Positions 9,775 to 11,957 of a stretch of DNA of 38,227 nucleotides are shown here, piece after piece. Made by a program: the position numbers and the translations under genes. Below the pieces are notes generated by a model. The model did not search any database and was not told the origin of the DNA. It saw only the letters and a program-made list of their open reading frames with translations. Position 1 is the first letter of the stretch; every line of letters begins with the position of its first letter. Source of the DNA: Omnitrophica bacterium GWA2_41_15 (GTDB lineage: Bacteria; Omnitrophota; Gorgyraeia; Gygaellales; Profunditerraquicolaceae); NCBI GenBank assembly GCA_919902045.1, contig CAKKSP010000029.1:1-38227 (forward strand), in the 5' to 3' direction.

Positions 9775-10967
9775 GATAATTTAGCTAATGCGCTTTCTTG
9801 CTGAAAAATCAAAGCCTGTTCCATATCTTCAGCGCTAACAAGGCCCATATCACGTATAACCTCACCTAGCATTACTCCACGTCTCCAGTTGATTTTTAAG
9901 GCTTCATCGAGCTGTTCTGAACTTAAAAGATTTCTTTCAATAAGTATCTGGCCTAACGGTTTATAAGATTGCCTGGGCAGAATGTGGCTCTGGCATACTT
10001 GCGGGCCAAAGATTTCTTTTTCGTTTGAGCCGCTTCTGCGGTCAACCATAAATTTACTTTTTGGGATCGCCTTTAGAAACCCTTTTATCTCTGCAACCCT
10101 GTCGTTTATCTCTACAATACTTTTCACCAGATCATCATGCCTCCTGTTAACAACAGCAATAGATAAACTCATAAACGGGATTTGGCGGCTGGTACGCGCG
10201 CGGTCTTTAGCGACGACAAAACCCTGCTTTTGATCCTGCGCAGAATAATGATACGGCACTAAACGGTCAAAAAATTCTATAAAACTTGAGGCTATTTCCT
10301 TATATTTTTCAATGGAAGTCAAAAAAACAAAATCATCTCCTCCGATATGACCGATGAAATCGTGCGGATTGCCGTAATGCTTTACACAGGTATACAACAG
10401 GTGTGCTACCTGCATAATCACCCGGTCTCCTTTTAAGTAGCCATAGACATCATTAAAATATTTGAAATTATCAATATCTACATAACCGAAAGAAAAACTG
10501 CTTCCCTTCTGAATACGTTCTGTAAGCGCATCTTCCACAATCCTTACACCAGGTAACCCTGTGAGAGGGCTTGAATGAAGGCTGTATTGGGAACGTTTAA
10601 GTGCCATTTCAATTCTAATACGTAAGTCTAAGGGGTCCGGCGGTTTAATAAGATAATCATCAACCCCCTGGCGCACTTCAAGCAGCTGCTGCCTAAGTTG
10701 GCGTTTATTAATAATAGTTATAATGGGAATATAGGCGGTCATGAAATCTTCTTTGAGGAGATGGCAGATTTGCATGTCAGGACGTTTCGCGGATTGGACA
10801 TCAGCGACAATTACATCGGGAGAGGATCTTTTGACTACTTCGATATCAGAAAGCGGGGCTTCGTGAAGAAAAACCTCATAACCCCACCCATCGAAACAAA
10901 AAGTAAGGACGTCTTTGAGGCTTTTATCCGATGAGATAATCAAGATTCTTTTTATTCTCTCGGTCAT
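9771..10967 (-). CDS. Receiver / GGDDF / MshEN-like signalling protein heading the atp operon
   Basis: 398 residues in three parts. Residues 6-122 are a receiver: D56 and K108 are present, but the usual acidic pair reads SSD at 12-14. Residues 130-305 are GGDEF-like (PLTGLPG, DIDNFKYFNDVYG, signature GGDDF at 209-213); no RxxD inhibitory site precedes the signature. Residues 336-390 match the MshEN (type II secretion ATPase N-terminal) fold: two copies of LGxx(I/L)I...L..(E/D)L..AL at L338 and L367, 29 residues apart, which fits the published 24+5 spacing of c-di-GMP-binding MshEN motifs. It may therefore make or sense a cyclic dinucleotide; neither activity is proven. It overlaps atpB by four bases. 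The start is supported by a promoter 8 bases upstream. Confidence 0.9.
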   Translation of the reverse strand: MTERIKRILIISSDKSLKDVLTFCFDGWGYEVFLHEAPLSDIEVVKRSSPDVIVADVQSAKRPDMQICHLLKEDFMTAYIPIITIINKRQLRQQLLEVRQGVDDYLIKPPDPLDLRIRIEMALKRSQYSLHSSPLTGLPGVRIVEDALTERIQKGSSFSFGYVDIDNFKYFNDVYGYLKGDRVIMQVAHLLYTCVKHYGNPHDFIGHIGGDDFVFLTSIEKYKEIASSFIEFFDRLVPYHYSAQDQKQGFVVAKDRARTSRQIPFMSLSIAVVNRRHDDLVKSIVEINDRVAEIKGFLKAIPKSKFMVDRRSGSNEKEIFGPQVCQSHILPRQSYKPLGQILIERNLLSSEQLDEALKINWRRGVMLGEVIRDMGLVSAEDMEQALIFQQESALAKLS

Positions 10968-10968
10968 T

Positions 10969-11003
10969 GTTAAATATTATAAAGCACGGCGAGAAATAGT
11001 AAA
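10969..11003 (-). promoter_or_regulatory. Sigma70-type promoter for the receiver-GGDDF/atp operon, nearly leaderless
   Basis: On the minus strand TTTACT (11003-10998) and a consensus TATAAT (10981-10976) are separated by 16 bases. Transcription would begin near 10969, two bases from the ATG at 10967. There is no Shine-Dalgarno sequence between the box and the ATG, so the mRNA would be leaderless or nearly so. Confidence 0.65.
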
Positions 11004-11020
11004 GGATTTTGTTACAGGCC

Positions 11021-11188
11021 AGCGGGTCCTGTCTTAGTATGTTTTCGCAGCACCGCTTGATTTTCCCCGGCGTGGAAAATCTGCGCTCGGGTAGAAAGCT
11101 CTTGCTCCCCGCCAATAAGTATTCTAGGGCGGTTCCATGCCCGCAAGAGCTTTCTAACGTGCTGCTTAAACATACTAAGCCACCCGCT
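11021..11188 (-). ncRNA. Candidate structured RNA A with six nested or branched stems
   Basis: Stems read from the sequence: P1 11021-11027/11182-11188 (7 bp), P2 11033-11044/11168-11179 (12 bp), P3 11047-11053/11159-11165 (7 bp), side hairpin P4 11059-11066/11074-11081 (8 bp), P5 11092-11105/11143-11156 (14 bp) and P6 11109-11113/11128-11132 (5 bp). All are perfect Watson-Crick helices. Minus is the likely coding strand because every gene here is on it, and an AT-rich TATATATATT box lies just upstream of P1 on that strand; an exact strand is not proven. Its outline, a long rod with one side hairpin in the middle, recalls 6S RNA but I cannot match the conserved sequence. Confidence 0.5.
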
Positions 11189-11227
11189 GATTGTAATATA
11201 TATAATCTCATGGTAATTTTAGCGAGC

Positions 11228-11251
11228 GCCCGCCACAAGGCTTCGGCGGGC
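11228..11251. repeat. GC-rich 7-bp hairpin between structured elements A and B
   Basis: GCCCGCC (11228-11234) pairs with GGCGGGC (11245-11251) around a 10-base loop. It is GC-rich in an AT-rich context. It could end an element B transcript on the minus strand, but no U-tract follows. Confidence 0.55.
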
Positions 11252-11257
11252 AAGAAT

Positions 11258-11465
11258 GTAGATTTTGGCAGTATTGCCTACAGGATATTGCGTAGCGTGC
11301 ATTAGGATTTTTTTGCCAAATGTGCACAAGGTATTACGACGAAGTAGACGCAGGAACTGACATTCGTTAAGGAACTAGTGGAATTCCTGCGGATACGAGG
11401 AGTAAACCGCAGTGCACGGCAAAAATAATCCAGCACGCGAACAATATCCTGTAGGCAAAATCTAC
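11258..11465 (-). ncRNA. Candidate structured RNA B, long nested-stem element
   Basis: Stems: P1 11258-11266/11457-11465 (9 bp), P2 11276-11290/11442-11456 (15 bp, perfect), P3 11295-11300/11433-11438 (6 bp), P3b 11305-11317/11418-11431 (13 bp with one bulged base), P4 GTGCAC 11322-11327/11412-11417 (6 bp) and P5 CGCAGGAA 11349-11356/TTCCTGCG 11384-11391 (8 bp). Bulges at each junction give a bent rod of about 208 nt. Between P1 and P2 the left strand holds GGCAGTATTGCC, which can form its own small hairpin. There is no credible open frame across it. Strand is assumed minus from its neighbours. It could instead be a DNA-level palindrome of a mobile element. Confidence 0.5.
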
Positions 11466-11483
11466 TTGAGCGAGCAGAATTGA

Positions 11484-11532
11484 AACACCCGGCGCAATCG
11501 GAATATGCGCCGGTGTTGCCTTGCTGGCAAGG
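11484..11532 (-). terminator. Two adjacent hairpins after the hydrogenase operon
   Basis: The first hairpin below the stop at 11541 is TTGCC/GGCAA (11516-11520/11526-11530), or in register CCTTG/CAAGG. It is followed by a 12-bp stem with one bulged C (11484-11496/11506-11517, loop about 9 bases). On the minus strand only TTTCAATTC follows, so this is a weak intrinsic terminator or a 3'-end stabiliser. Confidence 0.45.
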
Positions 11533-11540
11533 AGATTATA

Positions 11541-11957
11541 TTACTCGGTAATATTTACTCTTGAACGAAAGGATTTTTTCTGAGATAGCAGGCGCTTGGA
11601 TTCTAAAACCTTGTTCTGCGCGCGCCTTGAGCGGCGGCGTTTCTGACGGCGGATCTTCTCAATACGCTTTTGTTCTGCAGAAAGTTTACCTAAGATTTGG
11701 CTTTCGATTTTTTCTAAGAGGATACGCCGCGCAAGAAAACGATTCTGCGCCTGGGAGCGCTCTTTATGGCAGCGTACTTCTATTCCGGTAGGAATATGTT
11801 TTAAACAAACACAGGTAGATGTTTTATTAACGTTCTGGCCGCCGGGGCCTGGTGAGCGGATAAAAGTTTCAAATAAATCTTGGCTTCTGACTCCCAACTT
11901 GAGCATTTTCTGCTCAAGCGCTTGAGATTTTTCTCTTGATACAAAACTCTCTGGCAT
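11541..11957 (-). CDS. Release-factor-like peptidyl-tRNA hydrolase (ArfB / MTRFR type)
   Basis: 138 residues holding only the catalytic domain of class I release factors. The motif RSPGPGGQNVNKTSTCVCLK has GGQ at 39-41, followed by HIPTGIEVRCHKERSQAQNR. The stop-codon-recognition domain is absent. The C-terminus is strongly basic (RRQKRRRSRRAQNK at about 103-116), as in ribosome-rescue hydrolases that insert a tail into the ribosome or 50S subunit. It most resembles the bacterial relatives of mitochondrial MTRFR. It likely frees peptides from stalled ribosomes. It starts 8 bases after the receiver gene, at the distal end of the hydrogenase operon; no functional link to H2 metabolism is evident. 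Confidence 0.88.
   Translation of the reverse strand: MPESFVSREKSQALEQKMLKLGVRSQDLFETFIRSPGPGGQNVNKTSTCVCLKHIPTGIEVRCHKERSQAQNRFLARRILLEKIESQILGKLSAEQKRIEKIRRQKRRRSRRAQNKVLESKRLLSQKKSFRSRVNITE

Follow-up and report, generated by a model that had tools for sequence, protein, structure and literature searches.

As a rule, small mobile palindromes in bacterial genomes are identified through shared sequence among members of one species or genus. Integron attC sites and the ends of IS200/IS605 elements work as folded single strands that are recognised by their structure. The REP and REPIN elements that go with RAYT (TnpA-REP) are non-coding extragenic palindromes, present in many copies, which form strand-specific hairpins with conserved mismatches and often stand as doublets in a fixed arrangement (PMC3116915, PMC8266576). 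In E. coli, the enzyme recognises the bulge of the REP hairpin and its GTAG, and a comparison with attC sites and IS200/IS605 ends has been drawn (PMC8266576). Bacterial MITEs such as ERIC, Correia and RUP are short, non-coding, dispersed and intergenic; they have inverted ends and are mobilised in trans (PMC10969869). The element that is the subject of this analysis, B, is like REP and REPIN in the former set of properties and like these MITEs in the latter, its own mobilisation in trans being putative. A long ornate fold with covariation is also a feature of large non-coding RNAs such as ROOL, GOLLD and HEARO in Rfam. It differs in structure from attC sites and IS200/IS605 ends, and no integrase or cassette array is seen with it.

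Element B lies in the window (the whole 38,227-nt stretch of DNA from Omnitrophica bacterium GWA2_41_15 that was analysed) in a gap, 10968-11540, between two minus-strand genes, of which one ends at 11541 and the other starts at 10967. The nested long hairpin that an initial annotation placed at 11258-11465 is present there: the plus strand folds with -96.6 kcal/mol (z -13.3) and the minus strand with -88.1 kcal/mol (z -10.5), and none of 200 shuffles is as good in either case. The six-helix, 208-nt structure described at the outset stands, except that its outermost 9-bp helix (GTAGATTTT at 11258-11266 with AAAATCTAC at 11457-11465) is part of a frame ('hub') repeat and not of B. Element B proper occupies about 11274-11458 on the plus strand (~180 bp), as delimited by its fold, its perfect arms and a covariance model, which matches at 11278-11454 with 127 bits. 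The helix that had been called a perfect 15-bp P2 is indeed perfect, but it is 17 bp long: it pairs 11274-11290 with 11442-11458, forming the outer arms of B and its longest perfect helix. Inside it lies the conserved core (11295-11440, plus strand; alignments A1 and A2), with a GCGTGC helix, the ATTA bulge, an (A)T-rich helix, the position of a G.G mismatch, a GTGCAC helix, CAAGG and the TTACGACGA / GAGTAAACCG motifs; the apical part of this core (about 11338-11393) is variable. The internal loops of B carry ACGAxGxAGTA on both of their opposing sides, which gives tandem G.A mismatches.

Absence of homologues with compensatory changes had been named as what would speak against this structure; many such homologues were found. 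RNAalifold finds 40 pairs, 24 of them with changes on both sides, in an alignment (A1) of 27 copies of B from about 16 genera; the covariance model (R1) was built from 27 copies. By direct count, 94.9% of the cells of A1 are paired, against 79.4% in shuffles; its 177 both-side changes compare with 50.9 (sd 5.7), and its covariation score of 0.446 with 0.157, neither value being reached by any of 500 shuffles. Shuffling breaks the relatedness of the copies, whereas sliding the partner by one column preserves it, and in this second control pairing goes down to about 40%. The outer 12-bp stem changes in sequence at every pair, with 85% of its cells still paired, and the inner helices are 98-100% paired. 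Some unpaired positions are also kept, namely the bulge (ATTA or ATAA), CAAGG and the loop with TTACGACGA opposite GAGTAAACCG, and most copies also have a G.G mismatch. Among 77 distinct copies, several of the unpaired bases never change. The apical 50-60 nt vary freely. Since several 'bulges' are conserved throughout the family, they are to be read, on comparison of the copies, as features and not as noise. Judged by these alignments, the fold of B is maintained by compensatory change, and conserving the fold, not the sequence, is apparently how the element persists.

The window's own genome, a 1.14 Mb MAG, holds a second copy of B (97% identical) and two fragments (88-93%); the true number may be higher, as two copies lie at contig ends. 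A DNA search gave matches to A (the hairpin adjoining B), B, the frame or a further repeat, C, in 32 of a set of 58 relatives, mostly from the window's family and all of other genera, a tally that counts the own genome. By model R1, 63 of the family's 108 genomes carry B, each with 1-21 copies. In a sample of 285 genomes from across the phylum it is present in 65, and these belong to at least 16 families of the same class. Presence is patchy within genera: there are 15 copies in G024 and 0 in its relative G060, 11 in G077 and 0 in G014. Scanning 84,980 named genomes and IMG/VR with a pattern gave six exact matches, and the covariance model accepts none of them as B; B was thus not found outside the phylum, with records near the window's genome possibly lying outside the scans. 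The repeat family has so far been seen in one bacterial phylum; a literature search turned up no relevant work on palindromic repeats, RAYT or MITE in Omnitrophota.

Copies of B are dispersed between unrelated genes in both orientations (26 antisense and 14 sense, counting copies with co-directional flanking genes), and in the gap before ribF different genera carry B in opposite orientations. The gap between two tRNA genes behind frr is filled by B in G119. In its close relative G120, whose frr is 98% identical, the same gap has about 40 nt and B is absent; about 35 nt are found in G105, G116 and G125, which are likewise empty. (Shortly after frr, at L300, L311, L312, L314 and L316, 13 nt of a tRNA gene's 5' end, GGGCCTCTAGCTC, are duplicated; a short hairpin follows, and then the complete tRNA gene, which looks as though an element had gone into the tRNA and restored it by duplication.) The gap before tmk contains B in six genomes (G022, G010, G025, G032, G023, G015) and an A-type hairpin in G091, G092, G093, G095, G104, G119 and others; in G009 and G088 it is nearly empty. 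In G066, the sister of G032, the outer stem of B alone is left there, the core having been deleted between two GAGC repeats; such losses of the core (G066, L192) seem to be driven by direct repeats in the opposing loop strands of B and of the frame. Reuse of the same gaps across genera is a point against a mobile reading of B, and it could reflect function at these places and not chance.

Filled and empty orthologous sites, as in the frr/tRNA gap, are a mark of MITEs. So are the dispersal, in many copies, of an intergenic unit of 160-170 nt without coding capacity and the terminal inverted repeats, here the outer stem of 12-17 bp at the ends of B (for example ATTTTAGG..CCTAAAAT in G022). The G022 and G010 copies end at this stem of their own and have no shared flank; B is thus also a unit by itself. 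No clear target duplication was visible by eye at native ends of B (the standalone copies of G022 and the frr/tRNA site), and in this respect B is unlike ERIC, Correia and RUP; it is also unlike them in an internal structure that is held by compensatory change across a phylum and in being itself nested in unrelated MITEs. The GC skew of the flanks, a proxy for the replication strand, is negative for 40 copies and positive for 31, a weak bias that is not significant. We consider that B is probably one copy of a new family of mobile DNA palindromes, ~180 bp long, non-coding and non-autonomous, that belongs to the REPIN/MITE class. The other finding that had been named as speaking against the initial annotation, arms that are the inverted ends of a mobile element, is close to this result.

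B also hitchhikes in unrelated frames. The frame around it in the window has a left arm at 11196-11266 (TATATAATCTC ... AATTTT-AGCGAGC ... GTAGATTTT) and a right arm at 11457-11482 (AAAATCTAC-TTGAGCGAGC-AGAATTG), both on the plus strand, and an internal loop in which GCGAGC stands opposite GCGAGC (11222-11229 with 11467-11474), giving tandem G.A mismatches. By sequence comparison, a small plus-strand hairpin of the left arm (GCCCGCC..GGCGGGC, 11228-11251) is missing from the frame copy at L066. In the own genome, the frame holds B at this place and A-type or other hairpins elsewhere (copies with other cargo are at L063, L064, L065, L066 and L067). Hairpin family D (GCCAATG..GATCATTGGC) is a further cargo inside the frame (L065, L066, L067, L199). 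A different carrier is found in G024, where B lies within a unit of 264-288 bp that has 20-bp inverted ends (GGNTCNTTCG..) and is bordered by AT-rich 8-bp duplications, with 8 of 8 positions matching at L112 and L115 and 7 of 8 at L116 and L168. The GGNTCNTTCG.. ends, the AT-rich 8-bp duplications and the presence of transposase genes or remnants are all as in ISL3-family insertion sequences and their MITEs: ISL3 transposase genes occur in G024 and G060, remnants adjoin such ends, and the ends of the intact ISL3 insertion sequence are related, though not identical, to those of the carrier. From its ends and duplications, a MITE with ISL3-type ends has evidently moved as a unit with B inside it. 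Similar ends also bound units that contain other hairpins and no B, and at two pairs of end repeats searched for an ISL3 ORF (L284, L290) only ordinary genes were found. Carriage by the frame and by the MITE means that B can be a passenger.

Element A (11021-11188, plus strand) is a separate long-hairpin repeat family adjoining B. The two had been called unrelated, and their sequences and families bear this out. A is found without B in G002, G009, G013, G017, G018 and G029, and 61 of 79 copies of B have no A within 300 nt. In the remaining 18, A is 5' of B in 15, which implies that a composite A-B element formed and spread; A, though a separate family, sometimes travels with B. In the own genome A, frame and B (query 63-501, about 440 bp) were copied as one unit: a 95% copy is found on contig C13 in inverted orientation, lacking C and the right frame arm. 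Whether the gap holds one composite or two independent elements thus has a mixed answer: some genomes have A and no B, and most copies of B have no A nearby, yet A, frame and B were copied together here. A is widespread beyond the window (L191, L193, L195, L196, L202-L204), for example before tmk in many genera. Repeat C (11485-11534, plus strand) consists of two short tandem hairpins ending in GGCAAGGAG, and it has no Rfam match in the window, where no plus-strand gene follows it. About 25 copies of C (CACCCGGCGCAATCGGAATATGCGCCGGTGTTGCC..GGCAAGGAGG, ending in a Shine-Dalgarno) occur in the own genome; the eight that were read (L010, L013-L017, L020, L024) lie directly before start codons, and several of the genes that follow are of housekeeping type (phoU-, purB-, acpP-, gap- and ilvC-like by eye). 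Repeat C looks like a genome-wide 5' leader motif.

REP and REPIN are among the closest likenesses of B, and RAYTs are common in these genomes. Moreover, B resembles a REPIN in its strand-specific hairpin with conserved mismatches (G-U to A-C, 52:14) and in dispersed extragenic copies whose native ends have no clear target duplication. That B is a REPIN-like element moved by a RAYT (Y1, HUH) transposase is nevertheless unlikely. A Y1/RAYT gene is present in 53 of 63 genomes with B and in 37 of 45 without it, that is, with no association; the ten B-bearing genomes with no detected Y1 gene include the B-rich G030 (13 copies), G066 (10) and G007 (9), a comparison limited by the incompleteness of MAGs. 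At the seven RAYT loci of the own genome, no match to B, A, the frame or C rises above chance level, the RAYT genes there being flanked by other palindromes. B also has no invariant GTAG, and it is larger than this likeness would have it, with about 180 bp, several helices and internal loops. RAYT as the mobiliser of B was rejected for its independence of B and for the want of B beside its genes. (Two RAYT-type transposase genes of the own genome have c-di-GMP-I riboswitches, RF01051, directly upstream, at L089:782-867 and L093:1210-1302.)

It is equally doubtful that B is mere passenger DNA of MITEs moved by DDE transposases (of ISL3 type or others), with no recognition role of its own. Its place as cargo in G024, and a frame that takes other cargo elsewhere in the own genome, fit such a role. 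However, the maintenance of the fold by compensatory change over many genera would be left unexplained, and the copies in G022, G010 and G032 end at B's own stem, without a frame. The ISL3-type carrier is confined to G024's genus, and no ISL3 transposase was found in G000, G022 and G010, which have B. One might instead suppose that B is a self-standing 'hairpin parasite' with its own putative single-strand-specific mobiliser, inserting preferentially into other palindromes, and that A, B, the frame and others nest and recombine into composites; we hold this, too, to be rather improbable. If it were true, one phylum would have a private class of structure-recognised mobile DNA.

Strong covariation and conserved unpaired positions are typical of structured RNA, and many copies of B lie a few tens of bases from genes. 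Which molecule is selected can be approached through the kinds of pairs. Over 77 distinct copies these number 2948 Watson-Crick, 52 G-U and 14 A-C, and the excess of G-U over A-C identifies the plus strand as the one that folds; it would suit an RNA as well. But G-U makes up only 1.7-2.8% of the standard pairs of B (2.8% in A1), whereas the same script gives 11.3% for RNase P RNA in 23 genomes belonging to the window's family, with the reservation that the RNase P RNA helices come from a rougher alignment and that pair cells are not independent events. At one pair of B, 49 copies have C-G, 27 have U-A and 1 has G-C, and no intermediate occurs. The flanks of about 20 copies of B have nothing in common beyond the outer stem, and no conserved promoter, except within carrier frames. 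Rfam (4227 families, at gathering and at permissive thresholds, E <= 10) has no relevant match for B, which in this is unlike ROOL, GOLLD and HEARO; at E <= 10 there is a chance miRNA match in A and nothing else. (The length of the RNase P RNA matches, L248-L277, differs between the genera of the family and ranges from about 325 to 490 nt, suggesting inserts; no B was found within them.) The low G-U share, the pair without intermediates, insertion in either orientation and the lack of conserved flanks favour a folded DNA strand over an RNA gene. A reading of B as a structured non-coding RNA with a multi-copy gene, whether free-standing or acting in cis, is accordingly quite unlikely, given also the unrelated neighbours of B and its patchiness within genera, and the 'large RNA' of the initial annotation is not supported, in view of the dispersal of B and its near-strict Watson-Crick pairing. 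The plus strand appears to be selected mainly as a DNA hairpin, although the argument from pairing, orientation, flanks and low G-U is an indirect one. Transcribed copies of B may also alter mRNA stability, but the explanation calls for no specific regulatory role.

It is highly improbable that such hairpins originate on the spot, through replication errors that form palindromes (template switching), and that they are no homologous mobile elements: quasi-palindromes abound in the intergenic gaps of these genomes, some of them made from local sequence, but a core of about 160 nt with conserved motifs is common to dozens of genera, and the copies of B are therefore homologous.

As a mobile palindrome of the REPIN/MITE class, B might work as follows. 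When single-stranded, for instance on the template of the lagging strand, its plus strand would fold into a strand-specific hairpin. A putative trans-acting enzyme would then recognise this hairpin by its helices and conserved bulges, by analogy with REP/REPIN and the ends of IS200/IS605. The hairpin and its recognition in trans would account for the persistence of B, which may also spread passively inside other MITEs or together with A.

Covariation alone, as this case indicates, is no proof of a regulatory RNA, which matters for RNA-discovery pipelines that are run on metagenomes. By its structure, B can be recognised in at least 16 families of a single phylum; its compensatory pairing is almost perfect, and selection on a hairpin, probably a DNA one, is seen here with unusual clarity. 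With their nesting in each other and in MITEs, A, B and the frame offer a natural system in which to ask what it is that recognises single-stranded DNA when folded.
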